A stretch of 64,000 nucleotides of DNA from Streptomyces sp. NBC_00878 (GTDB lineage Bacteria; Actinomycetota; Actinomycetes; Streptomycetales; Streptomycetaceae), in contig NZ_JAPEOK010000001.1 in NCBI RefSeq assembly GCF_026341515.1, forward strand, positions 4,216,001 through 4,280,000, given 5' to 3'. This document shows, piece after piece, positions 4,526-51,631 of this stretch; the stretch's first letter is position 1, and every line of letters starts with the position of its first letter. The translations under genes and the position numbers were made by a program. The notes under the pieces were generated by a model that had not been told where the DNA came from, made no database searches, and saw only the letters and a program-made list of their open reading frames with translations.

Positions 4526-5746
4526 ATGCCCGAAGCCGTGATCGTCTCGACCGCCCGCTCCCCCATCGGCCGCGCCTTCAAGGGCTCCCTCAAGGACCTG
4601 CGCCCGGACGACATCACCGCCACGATCATCCAGGCGGCCCTGGCCAAGGTCCCGGAGCTCGACCCCAGGGACATCGACGACCTGATGCTCGGCTGCGGCC
4701 TCCCCGGCGGCGAGCAGGGCAGCAACCTCGGCCGCATCGTCGCGGTACAGATGGGAATGGACCACCTCCCCGGCTGCACGATCACCCGCTACTGTTCCTC
4801 CTCGCTCCAGACGACCCGTATGGCCCTGCACGCCATCAAGGCGGGCGAGGGCGACGTCTTCATCTCGGCGGGTGTGGAGATGGTGTCCCGCTTCACGAAG
4901 GGCAACTCCGACAGCCTCCCGGACACGCACAACCCCCTCTTCGCGGAGGCGGAGGCCCGCACCGCCGAGGTCGCCGCCAGCGAGGGCACGAGCTGGCACG
5001 ACCCGCGCGAAGACGGCATCGTGCCCGACCCGTACATCGCGATGGGCCAGACCGCCGAGAACCTCGCCCGCATCAAGGGCGTCACCCGCCAGGACATGGA
5101 CGAGTTCGGCGTCCGCTCGCAGAACCTCGCCGAGGAAGCCATCAAGAACGGCTTCTGGGAGCGCGAGATCACCCCGGTCACCACCCCCGACGGCACTGTC
5201 GTCAGCAAGGACGACGGCCCGCGCCCCGGCGTCACGATGGAGGGCGTCGCGGGCCTCAAGCCCGTCTTCCGCCCCGACGGCCTGGTCACCGCCGGCAACT
5301 GCTGCCCCCTCAACGACGGCGCCGCCGCGGTCGTGATCATGTCCGACACCAAGGCGCGCGAGCTCGGCCTCACCCCCCTCGCCCGGGTCGTCTCGACCGG
5401 CGTCACCGGCCTGTCCCCCGAGATCATGGGCCTCGGCCCGGTGGAGGCGTCGAAGCAGGCCCTGGGCCGCGCCGGCCTGACCGTCGACGACATCGACCTC
5501 TTCGAGATCAACGAGGCGTTCGCCGCCCAGGTGATCCCCTCCTACCGGGACCTGAACATCCCGCTGGAGAAGCTGAACGTGAACGGCGGCGCGATCGCGG
5601 TCGGCCACCCCTTCGGCATGACCGGCGCCCGCATCACCGGCACGCTCATCAACTCCCTCCAGTTCCACGACAAGCAGTTCGGCCTGGAGACGATGTGCGT
5701 CGGCGGCGGCCAGGGCATGGCGATGGTCATCGAGCGCCTGAGCTGA
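4526..5746 (+). CDS. Acetyl-CoA C-acyltransferase (thiolase)
   Basis: 406 aa, ATG with GGAG eight bases upstream. A cytoplasmic thiolase that cleaves or condenses acyl-CoA. The nucleophilic Cys is C90 in TRYCSSSLQ; the C-terminal active-site blocks [17 protein letters not shown] (His) and CVGGGQGMA (second Cys) are all present. Whether it is degradative (FadA-like) or biosynthetic (AtoB-like) cannot be read from sequence alone, and no fatty-acid oxidation partner is adjacent. It ends in a hairpin at 5828. Confidence 0.92.
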
Positions 5747-45454: not shown

Positions 45455-45731
45455 GAAGAGGATTCCATCCGAGGATCTGAAGAGCGGGGAGCAGGAACGG
45501 GGATCAGGAACGGGGAAGGAGGAGGCGTGTGGGGTGGCGTGGCACGGAACGAAGGAGTTGGGAGGGAGTGGGTGAGGTGGGTGGGCAACGCGAGCCGCCC
45601 GACACGTCTGACGGGCCGGGGGTGTCCAGCGTACGACGCCGGGGTCGCCCACGCCCGCGCCTGTGGACAACGCCTGTGGATACCGGGGTCCCTCGCGGAT
45701 GGCTTCCGCCATTTGGGTATCGTCGTCGGCG

Positions 45732-45788
45732 TATCGAAACCCGCATACGTCCCGACACCACCACGCCGCCTTGACCGGAGGCCTGTTG
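45732..45788 (+). promoter_or_regulatory. van cassette A: promoter box and initiation region of vanK
   Basis: TATCGAAACCCGCATACGT at 45732-45750, GGAGGC at 45777-45782, CTGTTGACT directly after. The same arrangement with the same 27-nt step occurs before vanHAX (48887) and murF (48646, minus). CATACG may act as -10 of a VanR-activated promoter. The upstream gap 45455-45731 is the mfd leader and shows only G-rich low complexity. Confidence 0.7.
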
Positions 45789-45797
45789 ACTGAAGGG

Positions 45798-45902
45798 ATG
45801 TCCTACAGCGAACCAGCCCGAACAGCGACCCAGATCCGGTGGTGCCCGGGGTGTATCAACGCCCCGTCCGCGACCGCCGAAGTGAGGATGGCGGACCAGT
45901 GA
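45798..45902 (+). CDS. Putative leader peptide of vanK, SEPA type
   Basis: 34 codons from ATG 45798 (or in frame from TTG 45786), starting MSYSEPARTA, matching the first codons of vanH and of the murF leader. Its TGA overlaps the GTG start of vanK (45899), so translation of vanK can be coupled to it. No homology known to me; it could be a non-functional copy of the vanH N-terminus used as an initiation device. Confidence 0.45.
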   Translation: MSYSEPARTATQIRWCPGCINAPSATAEVRMADQ

Positions 45903-47053
45903 GCCGAAACGCACACCACGGAGGGGCGGGTGCCGCGGGCGTGAGTCTGACCGTCAGGCCGATCAGCGCCGCCGAACACTTGGCGTTCGTGCGGGCACAG
46001 CGGTCCACCAGCTTTCTGCAGACCCCGGCATGGGCCCACGTCAAGCCCGATTGGCGCAGTGAGTCCCTCGGCTGGTACGACGGCGGGCAGCTGGTCGGTA
46101 CCGGGCTCGTCCTGCACCGCCCGGTGCCGAAGCTCGACCGCTACACGCTGGCCTATCTGCCCGAGGGCCCGGTCATCGACTGGACCGGCGAGATCAGCGC
46201 GTGGCTCGATCCGCTGGCGACGTATCTCAAGGCACACGGCGCGTTCGCGATCCGGCTCGGCCCGCCGGTGTGGACGAACACCTGGAGCGCCGCCCAGGTG
46301 AAGGAGGGCGTCGCCAACCCGGACATCAGGCGGCTCACCGACATGCCCAGCCGGGAGGAGAACTCGACAGGCCTGCGCGTGGCCAGGCAGCTCAAGGATG
46401 CCGGCTGGCTGCCGCAGAACCCGGAGGACGGCTTCGGGGTCGGACATCCGCAGTTCAAGTACGAGGTTCCGCTGGCGGGCAGGACCGAGGACGACGTACT
46501 CAAGGGCATGAACCAGCTCTGGCGCCGCAACGTCAAGAAGGCGGCCAAGGAGGGAGTCGAGGTCACGGTCGGTGACGACCTGATGGCGTTCCACGACCTC
46601 TACGTCCACACCGCCGAGCGCGACCACTTCACGCCCCGGCCGCTGCGCTACTTCGAGACCATGTTCGCGGCGCTGCGCGCCGAGGATCCCGAGCGGATCA
46701 AGCTCTACCTGGCCCGCCACGAGGGCGACCTGGTCGCCGCCACCATCATGGTCCGCGTCGGCACCCACTCGGTGTACTCCTACGGCGCCTCCTCCACCAA
46801 GAAGCGCGAGGTGCGCGGCTCCAACGCCCTCCAGTGGGCGATGATCCGCGACTCGCTGGCGGTCGGCTGCGACGTCTACGACCTGCGCGGCATCACCCCC
46901 ACCCTCGACTCCGACGACCCGCATGTCGGGCTGATCCAGTTCAAGGTGGGCACCGGCGGTCAGGCGGTGCGGTACGTCGGTGAGTGGGACCTGCCGCTGC
47001 GGCCGATGGTCTACAAGGCCTTCGACCTCTACATGAGGCGGCGCGGGCGCTGA
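45899..47053 (+). CDS. vanK: FemX-type peptidyltransferase VanK
   Basis: 384 aa from GTG 45899, which overlaps the leader stop; GTG 45941 (MSLTVRPIS) aligns better with FemX proteins and is an equal alternative. Two GNAT folds: first with YLPEGPVIDW, second with NQLWRRNVKKAAKEGVEV and ALQWAMIRDSLAVGC. FemX proteins add the first Gly of the Streptomyces cross-bridge; VanK does so on precursors ending in D-Lac and is essential once vanHAX is on. The cassette upstream and neighbours vanHAX point to VanK rather than housekeeping FemX. Confidence 0.82.
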   Translation: MSRNAHHGGAGAAGVSLTVRPISAAEHLAFVRAQRSTSFLQTPAWAHVKPDWRSESLGWYDGGQLVGTGLVLHRPVPKLDRYTLAYLPEGPVIDWTGEISAWLDPLATYLKAHGAFAIRLGPPVWTNTWSAAQVKEGVANPDIRRLTDMPSREENSTGLRVARQLKDAGWLPQNPEDGFGVGHPQFKYEVPLAGRTEDDVLKGMNQLWRRNVKKAAKEGVEVTVGDDLMAFHDLYVHTAERDHFTPRPLRYFETMFAALRAEDPERIKLYLARHEGDLVAATIMVRVGTHSVYSYGASSTKKREVRGSNALQWAMIRDSLAVGCDVYDLRGITPTLDSDDPHVGLIQFKVGTGGQAVRYVGEWDLPLRPMVYKAFDLYMRRRGR

Positions 47054-47141
47054 GCCCGGTAGCGGCCCCGAACAGCACCACGGCGTGGCGGGTCTTCCCG
47101 CGCACCCGGGCGTGACGGGTCTTGCGGCCCACCCCGCCGCA

Positions 47142-48485
47142 CTACGCGAGTGCGGCGGCGACCTCGTCGAGGCGTGACCCGCGGGAGGCCTTGACGAGCA
47201 CCACGTCGCCGGCGGCGAGGTGGCCGCGCAGCCAGTCGACGGCCGCCTCGTTGTCGGCCAGCGTCACCGCCCGCGCTCCCGCGCCGTCGGCGATCGACCG
47301 GGCGGCCTTGCCGACCGCGGCCACCACATCGGCGCGGGCGGCGGCGTACTCCCCGACGGCGCGGTGCTCGGCCTCGCTCTCGTCGCCGAGTTCGAGCATC
47401 TCGCCGAGGACGGCGATCCGGCATCCGCCCTCGATCGCCGCCAGCGCGTCCAGGGCCGCGCGGGTCGAGTCGGGGTTGGCGTTGTAGGAGTCGTTGAGCA
47501 GCGTCGCGCCGCCAGCGAGTTCGCGCAGCTCCATGCGCCACTTCGACAGCGAGACGGTGGCCAGCGCCGCCGCGGCCGCATCGAGGGGTACGCCGGCCGC
47601 CAGTCCCGCCGCCACGGCGGCCGACGCGTTGAGCGCCTGGTGGGCGCCCACGAGCGGCAGCGCGACGGGAACCGAGGCGTCGGCGGTCCCCAGCGTGAAG
47701 GACGGCCGGCCGAGCCGGTCCAGCGCCAGGTCGAGCACCCTCATGTCGGCGTGTTCCGCCCGGCCGAAGGCCAGCACCGGACCGTCGGTGAGCGAGCGCA
47801 TCGCGGCGACCCGGGGATCGTCGGCGTTGAGGACGGCGGTGCCGCCGGGCGCCAGCCCCTGTACGAGTTCACCCTTGGCCTTGGCGATGGCCTCGCGCGA
47901 CCCGAACTTGCCGAGGTGGGCCTGGCCGACGTTGAGGACGACGGCGACGTCGGGCGCGACCAGGCCGGTGAGGTGGGCGATGTCACCAATGTGGCGGGCG
48001 CCCATCTCGAGGACGAGGAACCGGGTGGCCGCGTCGGCGCGCAGCATGGTGAGCGGCACGCCGAGTTCGTTGTTGAACGAGCCGGTCGTGGCGATCGTCG
48101 GCGCGGTGCTCGACAGCACGGCGGCCAGCAGGTCCTTGGTGCTGGTCTTGCCCTGGGAACCGGTCACCCCGACAACGGTCAGCCCGTCGCGCAGCCGGGC
48201 CACGACGTGGGCACCCAGCGCCTGCAGCGCGGCCTGGGCGTCCTCGACGACGACGGTGGGCAGCGACGTGGGCCGGGAGCCGAGCACGGCCACCGCGCCG
48301 GCCCGGCCTGCCTGTTCGGCGTACTCGTGGCCGTCGACGTGTTCGCCGGCGAAGGCGACGAAGAGGCCGCCCTGTTCGGCCTGCCTGCTGTCGAGCACGG
48401 CGGGCGCGGTCACCGTCACAGCGCTGTCGCCCTCGACCGTCCCGCCGACGGCCGCGGCGATCTCGCCGAGGCTGAGCGGGATCAT
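47142..48485 (-). CDS. murF: MurF-type ligase, van-associated paralogue
   Basis: 447 aa. UDP-MurNAc-tripeptide:D-Ala-D-Ala ligase family: P-loop [15 protein letters not shown] (about 105), [12 protein letters not shown], and C-terminal [18 protein letters not shown] motif. The ATG at 48485 overlaps the stop of a 32-codon leader (ATGA). It lies outside any dcw cell-wall cluster and under a van-type cassette, so it is probably a second MurF that adds D-Ala-D-Lac. MurF genes are known in some glycopeptide-resistance clusters. Convergent with vanK. Confidence 0.88.
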
Positions 48486-48580
48486 GCGCAGACGGCGCGA
48501 AGGCCGGCGAGCGGGAGCAGGTTGACGAGGCAGCGGTCGACGGAACAGCGGTCGTCGGAGGCTGGTTCGCTGTGGGTCAT
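48482..48580 (-). CDS. Putative leader peptide of murF, SEPA type
   Basis: 32 codons from ATG 48580: [12 protein letters not shown] and onward, ending AVCA at a TGA that overlaps the murF ATG. The first seven residues equal those of vanH. In-frame TTG at 48592 sits four bases after GGAGG and may be the actual start. Confidence 0.45.
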
Positions 48581-48589
48581 ACGTGCAGT

Positions 48590-48646
48590 CAACATGCCTC
48601 CAGGCAATTCGGCGTGCTGTTGCGAGCACGTATGTGCTTTTCGATA
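48590..48646 (-). promoter_or_regulatory. van cassette C: promoter box and initiation region of murF
   Basis: On the minus strand TATCGAAAAGCACATACGT (48646-48628), GGAGGC starting at 48601, then ATGTTGACT. Spacing is identical to cassettes A and B. The space to cassette B (48647-48886) holds no supported gene. Confidence 0.7.
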
Positions 48647-48886
48647 CACAACGGCATGCTACCGATCGGTCGCATCGAGAGCGTGCATGGCGCCGTGCAC
48701 GCCGGGATCCTCGCGCGTCCTCGCCGGGACTTTCACACGTCTTCGACCTGCGGTCGGTCCGTGTCCGGTTGACAAGACCCCTGTCGCCCGGGTCAAATCC
48801 TCTTCGGCGCGGCCGCCAAGCCCTCGGACTTCGATGATCAACATGCGCATGGTTCCAGTGTTACCGTTCAGTAACGACTTGTAACA

Positions 48887-48943
48887 TATCGAAATGCGCA
48901 TACGTGGGGACAACACCGCGCCACCTTGACTGGAGGCATGTTG
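48887..48943 (+). promoter_or_regulatory. van cassette B: promoter box and initiation region of vanHAX
   Basis: TATCGAAATGCGCATACGT (48887-48905), GGAGGC (48932-48937), ATGTTGACT (48938). Just upstream, GTTAC and two GTAAC words at 48860-48885 (the latter about 10 bp apart) could be an OmpR/VanR-type binding site, but they are not obvious in the other two cassettes. Confidence 0.72.
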
Positions 48944-48952
48944 ACTTCGCGC

Positions 48953-49993
48953 ATGACCCACAGCGAACCGGCCCGCGCAGCGGCCCGCCGCACGGGATCG
49001 CCGACGACCACGCCCTCCTCGGGCGCCCCGGCAACCGGAATCACCATTTATGGGTGCGGACAGGACGAGGCCGCTTTGTTCCGGGAGATGGCACCCCGCT
49101 TCGGCGTCATACCGACCATCACGGAGGAGACGGTCTCCGAAGCCAATATTGAACTGGCGTTCGGAAACCGGTGCATCAGCGTAAGCCACAAAGTGCGGAT
49201 TGCTAATTCTGCCCTTCTTGCGTTCAGCCAGGCAGGTGTAGCGTACATCTCCACGAGGAGTATCGGCTACAATCACATCGACGTGGAATACGCAGAAAGC
49301 GTCGGAATTTCCGTCGGGAACGTCGCCTATTCGCCGGACAGTGTTGCCGACTACACACTGATGCTGATGCTGATGGCAGTACGGAATGCGAAATCCACTG
49401 TCCGTCGCACGGATGCGCATGATTACCGGCTGCACGATGTGCGCGGGAAAGAGCTGCGCGACCTGACCGTCGGAGTGGTCGGCACGGGACGCATCGGTAC
49501 GGCAGTCGTGGACAGGCTGCGGGGTTTCGGCTGTCGAATACTGGCCCACGACAACAGCCCCAAGGTCGACGTTGAATACGTTCCTCTCGATGAGTTGCTG
49601 CAACTGAGCGACATCGTCTCGCTCCACGCACCCCTCAACGAGGACACGTACCATCTTCTCAATCATCAACGCATCGAGAAGATGAGGCAGGGCGCGTACG
49701 TCATCAATACCGGACGCGGCCCGCTGATCGACACCGAGGCCCTTGTTCCGGCGTTGGAAGAAGGCAGGCTGGGCGGTGCGGCGCTGGATGTCCTCGAAGG
49801 CGAGGAAGGGATATTCTACGCCGACCTCAGAAACAAGCCCATCGAAAGCAAACTGCTGCTGCGGCTGCAGAAGCTGCCGAATGTGCTCATCAGCCCGCAC
49901 ACTGCCTACTACACCGACCACGCGCTGAGCGACACGGTCGAGAACTCCATCACGAACTGCCTGAAATTCGAAAGCAGGAATCAGCATGGCTAA
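48953..49993 (+). CDS. vanH: D-lactate dehydrogenase VanH
   Basis: 346 aa from ATG 48953; in-frame ATG 48938 and TTG 48941 are alternatives. It reduces pyruvate to D-lactate for VanA. The D-2-hydroxyacid dehydrogenase fold shows GVVGTGRIGTAV (NAD site), NTGRGPLID (Arg) and ISPHTAYYTD (catalytic His). The first 29 residues (MTHSEPARAAARRTG onward) precede the enzyme proper (TGITIYGCGQDEA) and correspond to the leader peptides of vanK and murF, here fused in frame. Codon use is less GC-biased than in neighbours (AAT, ATT, GAA common), a sign of transfer. Overlaps vanA by 8 bp. Confidence 0.95.
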   Translation: MTHSEPARAAARRTGSPTTTPSSGAPATGITIYGCGQDEAALFREMAPRFGVIPTITEETVSEANIELAFGNRCISVSHKVRIANSALLAFSQAGVAYISTRSIGYNHIDVEYAESVGISVGNVAYSPDSVADYTLMLMLMAVRNAKSTVRRTDAHDYRLHDVRGKELRDLTVGVVGTGRIGTAVVDRLRGFGCRILAHDNSPKVDVEYVPLDELLQLSDIVSLHAPLNEDTYHLLNHQRIEKMRQGAYVINTGRGPLIDTEALVPALEEGRLGGAALDVLEGEEGIFYADLRNKPIESKLLLRLQKLPNVLISPHTAYYTDHALSDTVENSITNCLKFESRNQHG

Positions 49994-51026
49994 GCTGAAA
50001 ATCGGCGTAATATTCGGAGGCTGTTCAGAAGAACACCCCATCTCCATCAAGTCGGCGCGAGAAGTCGCACAAAACATCGATGTCGAGAAGTACGAACCGT
50101 TCTACATCGGGATCACGCAGAGCGGCGACTGGAAGCTCTGTGACGGCCCCGACCCGAATTGGGAGAACGGCGAGTGCCGTCCGGTTGTGCTGTCACCGGA
50201 CAGGAGCGTGCACGGACTGATCATCCTGGAGGAGGGGAAGTACGAGACGATCCGTCTGGACGTCGTATTGCCCGTTCTGCACGGCAAGTTCGGTGAGGAC
50301 GGCGCGATGCAGGGGCTGCTGGAGCTCTCCGGCATCCCCTACGTGGGCTGCGACGTTCAGAGCTCCGCCCTGTGCATGGACAAGTCCCTCGCCTACGTCG
50401 TCGCCAGGAGCGCGGGAATCGCCACGCCCGATTTCTGGACCGTCATGGCGGGCGAGAAGATCGACCCCGACCTGCTCACCTACCCTGTCTTCGTGAAGCC
50501 GGCCCGCTCGGGGTCGTCCTTCGGCGTCAGCAAGGTGTCCAGCGAGGAGGAACTGCAGAGCGCGGTGGAGACCGCGAGGCAGTACGACTCGAAGGTGCTG
50601 ATCGAAGGGGCCGTCATCGGCAGCGAGATCGGATGCGCCATCCTGGGGAACGAGTTGGACCTGTTCGCGGGCGAGGTGGATCGAGTCGACCTCTCGCACG
50701 GGTTCTTCAGGATCCACCAGGAGGACTCGCCCGAAACCGGTTCCGAGAACTCCACATTCATCGTTCCCGCCGACATTCCGGAAGAGCTGCGATCACGCGT
50801 CCGGGAAGCGGCGAAGGACGTGTACCGCGCCTTGGGGTGCAGGGGTCTCGCACGGGTGGACATGTTCCTCAAGGAGGACGGCGAAGTCGTCCTCAACGAG
50901 GTCAACACGCTGCCCGGTCTGACCTCGTACAGCCGCTACCCGAGGATGATGGCGGCCGCGGACGTGCCGCTGTCCGAAGTGATCGACCGGACCGTTTCGC
51001 TCGCATTGGCGGGGAAAAACAGGTGA
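49986..51026 (+). CDS. vanA: D-alanine--D-lactate ligase VanA
   Basis: 346 aa ATP-grasp ligase making D-Ala-D-Lac. IGVIFGGCSEEHPISIKSA at the N-terminus, ATP loop KPARSGSSFGVSKV, metal site LNEVNTLPGLTSYSRYP. The omega loop carries FFRIHQE with His244, the residue that gives D-lactate preference, in place of the Tyr/Lys of D-Ala-D-Ala ligases; numbering equals enterococcal VanA. ATG overlaps vanH end; its TGA overlaps the vanX GTG. Confidence 0.96.
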   Translation: MAKLKIGVIFGGCSEEHPISIKSAREVAQNIDVEKYEPFYIGITQSGDWKLCDGPDPNWENGECRPVVLSPDRSVHGLIILEEGKYETIRLDVVLPVLHGKFGEDGAMQGLLELSGIPYVGCDVQSSALCMDKSLAYVVARSAGIATPDFWTVMAGEKIDPDLLTYPVFVKPARSGSSFGVSKVSSEEELQSAVETARQYDSKVLIEGAVIGSEIGCAILGNELDLFAGEVDRVDLSHGFFRIHQEDSPETGSENSTFIVPADIPEELRSRVREAAKDVYRALGCRGLARVDMFLKEDGEVVLNEVNTLPGLTSYSRYPRMMAAADVPLSEVIDRTVSLALAGKNR

Positions 51027-51631
51027 ATGAAGATTTCGTCTTCATGGACGAGCACATATCCGGAATACGCTGGGACGCCAAGTACGCCACGTGGGACAAC
51101 TTCACCGGCAAGCCGGTGGACGGGTACCTGGCAAATCGGATAGTCGGTACGAAGGCTTTGTGTGCGGCTCTGGAAAAGGCGCAGAAGCAGGCCGAATCCC
51201 TCGAATTCGGCCTGCTCCTCTGGGACGGCTACCGCCCGCAACGCGCCGTGGACGCCTTTCTGCGCTGGTCGCAACAGCCGGAGGACGGCCAGAAGAAGCT
51301 GCGGCACTACCCGAACATCGACAGAGGCGAGATGTTCGAAAAGGGGTACGTGGCCGCGAAGTCGGGCCACAGCCGCGGTAGCACCGTTGACCTGACGCTG
51401 TATCACCTGAACACCGGTGAACTTGCCCCCATGGGCGGTGACCATGACGTGATGGATTCGATTTCCCATCATGGAGCACAAGGGGTCACCGAAACCGAGG
51501 CGGCAAACCGTGAGCACCTGCGCTCCATCATGGGTGCCTGCGGATTCAGCGCGTACGAGTATGAGTGGTGGCATTACACGTTGAAGGGCGAGCCCTACCC
51601 GGACACCTATTTCGATTTCCCCATCGCGTAG
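51023..51631 (+). CDS. vanX: D-Ala-D-Ala dipeptidase VanX
   Basis: 202 aa, same length as enterococcal VanX. GTG 51023 overlaps the vanA stop. Zinc ligands His116, Asp123 and His184, catalytic Glu181 and Arg71 all fall at the canonical positions (SGHSRGSTVD, EWWHY). It hydrolyses D-Ala-D-Ala but not D-Ala-D-Lac, so vancomycin target precursors are removed. Last gene of vanHAX before a strong terminator. Confidence 0.96.
   Translation: MNEDFVFMDEHISGIRWDAKYATWDNFTGKPVDGYLANRIVGTKALCAALEKAQKQAESLEFGLLLWDGYRPQRAVDAFLRWSQQPEDGQKKLRHYPNIDRGEMFEKGYVAAKSGHSRGSTVDLTLYHLNTGELAPMGGDHDVMDSISHHGAQGVTETEAANREHLRSIMGACGFSAYEYEWWHYTLKGEPYPDTYFDFPIA

Follow-up and report, generated by a model that had tools for sequence, protein, structure and literature searches.

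The vancomycin-resistance cluster vanSRJKHAX of Streptomyces coelicolor is controlled by VanR, and its vanH and vanK promoters are composed of a TTGA(A/C)T hexamer, a spacer of 6 nt and an ATG at the transcription start. The tabulated data of PMC3160421, citing Hong et al. (2004), list vanH (...TTGAATAGAGGCATG, tabulated as ...CCTTGAATAGAGGCATG) and vanK (...TTGACTGGGGGCATG, tabulated as ...CCTTGACTGGGGGCATG) among the documented leaderless genes of S. coelicolor, together with vanR, and this record is repeated in PMC4282423. In other actinobacteria, murF is located beside van genes in several orders, with vanK nearby, as described in the main text of a survey (PMC8698665). Here, we analysed a stretch of 64 kb (hereafter, the window) from the soil bacterium Streptomyces sp. 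NBC_00878, corresponding to positions 4,216,001 to 4,280,000 of contig NZ_JAPEOK010000001.1, in which one promoter unit is repeated upstream of vanK, murF and vanH. As in the vanSRJKHAX cluster, vanK, vanH, vanA and vanX are found together and the genome encodes a VanRS pair, and murF lies beside the van genes as in the surveyed vanHAX regions. Unlike in S. coelicolor, vanRS is unlinked, 1.44 Mb away, murF is located between vanK and vanH, and no vanJ is found under the cassette; moreover, the unit is present in six copies in this genome, including one before murF, one with a degraded -10 hexamer and three with a 15-bp duplication.

In our view, the repeat is very likely a portable module that equips genes of the VanR regulon with a leaderless start and includes the first ~9 codons of the reading frame. 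This proposal is built on the layout of the unit, its conservation, a constraint at the nucleotide level and overlaps between stop and start codons, all of which can be read in the sequences. A VanR-type operator CATATCGTCGGCATATCGAAAACCGCATACGT would be located 20 nt upstream of the -10 hexamer TTGACT, and RNA polymerase would start at the ATG present 6-7 nt past the -10, so that the mRNA would begin with the start codon. The ~9 codons of the module would form an A-rich and weakly structured 5′ coding stretch that would help ribosomes to start without a leader. A module in frame with the gene (vanH, VanY genes and many vanK) would add an N-terminal extension to the protein, and an out-of-frame module (most murF and the other vanK) would produce a short upstream open reading frame (uORF) whose stop overlaps the true start, the gene being translated by coupling. 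For the genome studied here, VanR binding, induction, the aid to initiation and the coupling are predictions drawn from sequence comparison.

The TATCGAAANNCRCATACGT box has three exact matches in the window, at 45732-45750 on the plus strand before vanK (TATCGAAACCCGCATACGT), at 48628-48646 on the minus strand before murF (TATCGAAAAGCACATACGT) and at 48887-48905 on the plus strand before vanH (TATCGAAATGCGCATACGT). No further site was detected in the window with up to three mismatches (0.02 expected), and none of 100 shuffled windows contained at least three matches. The vanK box is a putative VanR site, and the same box is found in relatives. In all three copies, GGAGGC is located 26 nt past the end of the box and the start of ATG(A/T)CC(C/T)ACAGCGAACC is located 66 nt past that of the box and 15 nt past the (A/C)TG that follows GGAGGC. 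A hexamer is present at +20 after the box in each case, TTGACC for vanK, TTGACT for vanH and TTGCCT for murF, followed by CTG, ATG and ATG, respectively. The part of the original prediction that described three boxes with fixed downstream spacing and the repetition of a whole unit before vanK, murF and vanHAX is borne out by the exact matches, strands and distances, the recurring unit comprising operator, core promoter and start region.

The same layout was found in relatives, using 80 VanH loci with named hosts from genome contigs (the best 80 of 300 stretches encoding a relative). We measured the spacing at 86 boxes (up to three mismatches) lying at most 260 nt upstream of vanH, vanK or murF. 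The best match to TTGACT lies exactly 20 nt past the box in all 81 copies with a unique best match (five were ties), and the first ATG is found at 32 or 33 nt past the box in 68 of the 86 copies. The expectation of the original prediction that the spacing would be kept in relatives is thus confirmed, and the consensus of the module reads CATATCGTCGGCATATCGAAAACCGCATACGTGCCGGCAACACCRCGCTGCCTTGACT-N6/7-ATGACCTACAGCGAACCAGCACGAACA. A scan of the 80 loci, the window and L001 led to 151 candidate sites (71 labelled vanH, 25 vanK, 10 murF and 45 other or with nothing recognised), of which 127 make up the strict set. Four of the 25 vanK-labelled sites (L027, L059, L061 and L074 at 6644), located 470-685 nt upstream and encoding another protein, were dropped; the gene is VanY-like by sequence at L027 and L059. 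At least one strict copy is present in 69 of the 80 VanH loci and at least two in 41. Copies of the module thus stand before vancomycin-resistance genes in many actinobacteria, preceding vanK, murF, VanY, VanZ and VanJ-type genes in addition to vanH. The Pfam assignments cover four of the 45 unassigned cassette genes and the vanY at C1:96.5 kb of our genome, the others being named by eye or unnamed; the four encode a VanZ (PF04892), a VanY (PF02557), a VanJ-type Exo_endo_phos protein and an ABC ATPase. At L021 (5271, minus strand), a cassette with MTYREPAS codons precedes a gene for an ABC transporter ATPase, opposite vanH, which is possibly a further gene of the regulon.

The position of the -10, six or seven bases before the ATG, suggests a leaderless message. 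The original prediction had placed GGAGGC within an untranslated leader. According to such a reading, the promoter would be an ordinary leadered one, duplicated with its short 5′ leader, GGAGGC being the Shine-Dalgarno sequence and ATG(A/T)CC its start codon. GGAGGC is indeed present in the three window copies and is the commonest spacer among relatives (13 of 125), but in the window it directly adjoins the first (A/C)TG and is separated from the second ATG by 15 nt, a distance outside the usual Shine-Dalgarno range. Furthermore, the spacer differs among relatives (GGCGGC in 12, GGGGGC in 6 and GTCGGC in 5 of the 125) while the position of the -10 is constant, and the S. coelicolor vanH and vanK, of the same layout, are tabulated as leaderless (PMC3160421). 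We regard a leadered promoter as very unlikely. A role of GGAGGC as a ribosome site was rejected on the basis of the spacing and the S. coelicolor record; located between -10 and start, it looks like the spacer separating them.

The ~nine codons of the module (MTYSEPART) are kept at the nucleotide level. Among 66 vanH copies, codons 2-9 are enriched in A-ending codons compared to the enzyme core for Pro (40/67 vs 47/689), Ala (32/61 vs 177/1987), Arg (43/69 vs 255/1722) and Glu (55/61 vs 564/1269), with a weaker bias for Thr and Ser. The same bases recur in looser form in copies that were found without using that stretch (19 of vanK and 32 others); in the murF copies, codons 2-6 are common and the sequences diverge beyond. 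The 5′ end of vanH is also less structured than synonymous recodings over the first 30 nt (58 of 66) and the first 45 nt (61 of 66). We read the low structure and the A-ending codons as an aid to translation start on a leaderless mRNA. The recurrence of the peptide MTYSEPAR on the non-homologous proteins VanH, VanK and VanY could instead point to a functional N-terminal tag, involved for example in the localisation or assembly of Van proteins, with selection acting on the peptide. This seems most improbable, as the codons form a separate uORF, unattached to the enzyme, in 17 vanK and murF copies, a constraint on the peptide gives no account of the retention of A-ending synonymous codons, and the vanK of L010 and L041 begins with its own first codons and carries no tag.

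The way in which the module joins the downstream gene depends on the gene. Outside the window, vanH is in frame with the module in all 66 strict copies, mostly with ~28 residues added, and the in-frame proportion is 11 of 19 for vanK and 1 of 8 for murF, the others being uORFs (the murF of L062, which runs off its contig, was counted in neither class). At L010 and L041, vanK itself starts at the +1 position. In the window, vanH (start at 48938 or 48953, end at 49993, plus strand) carries in-frame cassette codons ahead of its enzyme core, taken here from 49037. It is followed on the same strand by 49986..51026 and 51023..51631, which we take to be vanA (D-Ala-D-Lac ligase) and vanX (D,D-dipeptidase), the latter being the last gene of the vanH unit. 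The vanK gene (45899..47053, plus strand, FemAB family, PF02388) is preceded by a uORF at 45798..45902 (plus strand, MSYSEPARTATQIRWCPGCINAPSATAEVRMADQ) whose TGA overlaps the GTG start of vanK, and murF (47142..48485, minus strand, with Mur ligase domains) by a uORF at 48482..48580 (minus strand) whose TGA overlaps the murF ATG. The uORF stop overlaps the gene start as NTGA in 16 of 17 cases, including the GTGA of vanK and the ATGA of murF in the window; the sole non-overlapping stop belongs to the vanK of L016, for which the Shine-Dalgarno search was positioned at the uORF stop and not at a known start. Shine-Dalgarno-like motifs are present at none of the eight murF starts (with none at -16 to -4 for the murF of the window) and at five of the eight coupled vanK starts.

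Translationally coupled uORFs with ATGA or GTGA overlaps are a general bacterial device, in which, as here, a short ORF has its stop codon overlapping the start of the following gene. Unlike in these general cases, the uORF described here corresponds to the start region that opens vanH elsewhere, carried along with the promoter. Short uORFs before vanK and murF, with a vanK uORF of 34 codons in L002, L003, L006 and the window, could also be regulatory, acting by attenuation or as drug-sensing leader peptides and not by passive coupling. Codons 11-34 of these uORFs share 46-71% amino-acid identity in six pairs, with dN (nonsynonymous divergence) of 0.15-0.35 and dS (synonymous divergence) of 0.13-0.33, and 11 of 19 strict vanK copies are in frame and have no uORF. 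A regulatory peptide was rejected for the lack of peptide conservation past the shared codons, with no search for terminators or riboswitches made in these leaders, and we give a regulatory role of the uORFs in general little credence.

In all three window copies, the segment comprising -10, spacer and start is present twice, by one in-frame 15-bp tandem duplication. The successive units are TTGACC-GGAGGC-CTG (45771-45785) and TTGACT-GAAGGG-ATG (45786-45800) for vanK on the plus strand, TTGCCT-GGAGGC-ATG and TTGACT-GCACGT-ATG for murF (48578..48607, minus strand), and TTGACT-GGAGGC-ATG and TTGACT-TCGCGC-ATG for vanH (48926..48955, plus strand). TTGACT and ATG are both present at +35, in the duplicated unit, in all three copies. 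This duplication was detected in none of the 148 other candidate sites, nor in the three further copies of the same genome, and in the genus scan the duplicated pattern is matched perfectly by the three window sites alone, with two or three mismatches elsewhere. The distance to the operator favours the use of the first unit and the intact TTGACT and ATG (3/3) favour that of the second; as a result of the duplication, transcription and translation may now begin at the second unit. Altered DNA contacts of VanR were considered as the cause of the re-spacing by 15 bp and rejected: the VanR of this genome has two unusual residues (one in the DNA-binding domain) compared to 0-10 in 45 others, and the usual spacing is found in the copies that lie outside the window in this genome.

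Two features common to the three window copies, the 15-bp duplication and the GGAGGC spacer, could be taken to indicate a recent triplication within this lineage, with vanH as the source; copying from vanH had been suggested by the original prediction. The copies are, however, 60-66% alike over the 58-nt upstream part, and the vanK-murF-vanH trio with its cassettes is already present, without the duplication, in other streptomycetes (L002, L003, L013, L016, L077 and L080). Moreover, a vanR stump flanks the vanK copy, whose second codon is TCC, as in 12 of 19 vanK, compared to ACC in 48 of 66 vanH. We find a recent triplication unlikely. Because the copies share the duplication and yet are so divergent upstream, a single duplication that arose in this lineage and spread to the three clustered copies by gene conversion seems more likely than triplication or three separate events. 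No close sister genome by which to date the duplication was found, the nearest VanH being 86% identical among the best 120 of 5134. Tentatively, the module could be seen as a portable cassette that has been copied from one resistance gene to another, non-homologous one, taking its first codons along as a tag or a coupled uORF, and that has been homogenised between neighbouring copies by short gene conversions, of which the duplication would be a trace. Concerted evolution across the whole set was not upheld as a strong claim, the within-genome similarity over 58 nt being 0.806 vs 0.785 for permuted pairs (0 of 5000 permutations). For Streptomyces alone, these values are 0.799 and 0.785 (29 of 5000), and the within-genome excess is weaker for the first nine codons (50 of 5000; 386 of 5000 for Streptomyces alone).

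These comparisons do not support vanH as the sole source of the copies. On the minus strand, upstream of and divergent from vanK, 45689..45727 encodes MAEAIREG, compared to MAEAIRDG in VanR, and is probably the stump of a vanR 5′ end; the reverse strand reads DDDTQMAEAIREGPR, resembling EDEPYMAEAIRDGLR of VanR, a resemblance also seen in the DNA alignment. An intact vanR is divergent from vanK, with the box between them, in L019, L047 and L077, and a shortened one is found in L006. As a vanR stump adjoins it, the window vanK copy is most likely an old vanR-divergent site that stayed behind after the relocation or loss of vanRS there. The copies of murF and vanH are divergent, with 240 nt between them in the window; the corresponding gap is 40 nt in L016, L026 and L077, 54 in L061, 56 in L013, 217 in L080, 327 in L003 and 4704 in L002. 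In L016, L026 and L077, the two cassettes almost mirror each other (in L077, for instance, around ACCGGCCGGT), which suggests that the region arose by inverted duplication or acts as a symmetric bidirectional promoter.

The genome encodes one close VanR (E-value 1e-95), at C1:5.70 Mb, 1.44 Mb from the window and with a gene for a VanS-type kinase behind it, and no VanR or VanS match was detected in the window at an E-value of 1e-8. This VanR shares 85-94% identity with the VanR encoded near vanH at 47 of the 80 loci. The box is present ~36 nt upstream of vanR in L001 and G159. In our genome, the vanR-linked box, also ~36 nt upstream of the gene, has two mismatches and faces away from vanR, and the gene behind it on the opposite strand is a candidate esterase gene, named by eye. 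We scanned 392 Streptomyces genomes for the leader pattern (up to three mismatches), vanH (E-value up to 1e-90) and a close VanR (E-value up to 1e-95), which were found in 28, 34 and 183 genomes, respectively. A close VanR is present in 27 of the 28 leader-pattern genomes vs 156 of the 364 others (p = 6e-9), and vanH in 26 of the 28 vs 8 of the 364, both comparisons being uncorrected for relatedness. The leader-pattern genome without a close VanR (G050) is 82% complete, and in the two without vanH (G122 and G159) the module is located beside vanR, in frame with a VanY-like protein. VanR control of the module is thus supported by association. A regulator that is unlinked may perhaps not be peculiar to this genome: in G047, G105, G184, G189, G205, G235, G292 and G315, vanH and the close VanR gene are found on different contigs or over 1 Mb apart. 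In Streptomyces lincolnensis L4 (L006), a short stump is all that is left of vanR upstream of vanK (at 5696), with the vanS frame continuing; a functional VanR would have to be encoded at another place.

A 95-base cassette query (L036) detected six places in our genome at an E-value of 3e-7 or better, including the three of the window. The vanR-linked copy (C1:5701620), also among the 148 other sites, has kept the box and has a degraded -10. The two others precede a vanK paralog, 81% identical (C1:39896-39969, minus strand), with an in-frame stop in the reading frame of the cassette, and a VanY-family gene of 187 amino acids (C1:96474-96541, plus strand); both have a -10-like hexamer and an ATG at the same spacing. 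The box alone, at three mismatches, is uninformative at the genome scale (eight matches vs four for a reversed control pattern). Near the chromosome end, the regions G000 C1:36000-43000 and C1:92000-104000 (L106, L104 and L084) retain dispersed remnants of a second van set, namely this vanK paralog with its cassette and in-frame stop, partial murF pieces (best 75-84% identity) and the VanY-family gene with its cassette. A VanJ-type query identified two unlinked relatives in our genome (57 and 52% identity), with no cassette match near either.

Several observations weigh against the proposal of a portable module providing leaderless starts within the VanR regulon. The strict copies were picked with a filter on -10 and start, the measurement on 86 boxes being the sole unbiased test of spacing. 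Strict copies are missing from eleven of the 80 VanH loci, of which four are from non-actinobacteria and three (L014, L062 and L070) carry a relaxed copy. In the window, vanK has CTG and not ATG at the canonical +1 position. The weaker structure of vanH holds for just 44 of 66 copies over the first 60 nt, and a deeper vanH control segment (offset 600) is also less structured than its recodings in 49 of 66; the other two deeper segments go in the opposite direction (24 and 29 of 66). Copies within a genome are only slightly more similar than permuted pairs. A close VanR is encoded in the retrieved stretch of just 47 of the 80 VanH loci, and the 156 Streptomyces genomes mentioned above combine a close VanR with the absence of the leader pattern. 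Finally, PMC7947799 reports that leaderless transcripts are under-represented among glycopeptide-responsive genes at large, in passages that do not mention the van genes.

The promoter unit and its codons are not described in the passages considered of PMC8698665, and the words "promoter" and "leader" are absent from its main text. Shared start codons are likewise not described in the parts considered of PMC8698665, PMC6001138, PMC9779433, PMC7947799, PMC3160421, PMC4282423 and PMC6022936; a promoter alignment may be present in Hong et al. (2004) and Hutchings et al. (2006). In the primer data of PMC9779433, the reverse primer of an S. coelicolor vanH promoter reporter reads as the reverse complement of a sequence resembling the 3′ part of the box, so that this reporter may end before the -10 and the ATG.

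If our interpretation is correct, an actinobacterial regulon could recruit new genes in one step, ~90 bp bringing the regulator site, the promoter and a leaderless start, and translational coupling would make an exact in-frame landing unnecessary. The module would give a reason for the N-terminal extension of actinobacterial VanH and provide a sequence signature for candidate genes of the VanR regulon, such as the VanY-family gene located 4.2 Mb away in this genome. Its copies would also form a natural set of leaderless messages in which the role of the first codons in initiation could be tested.

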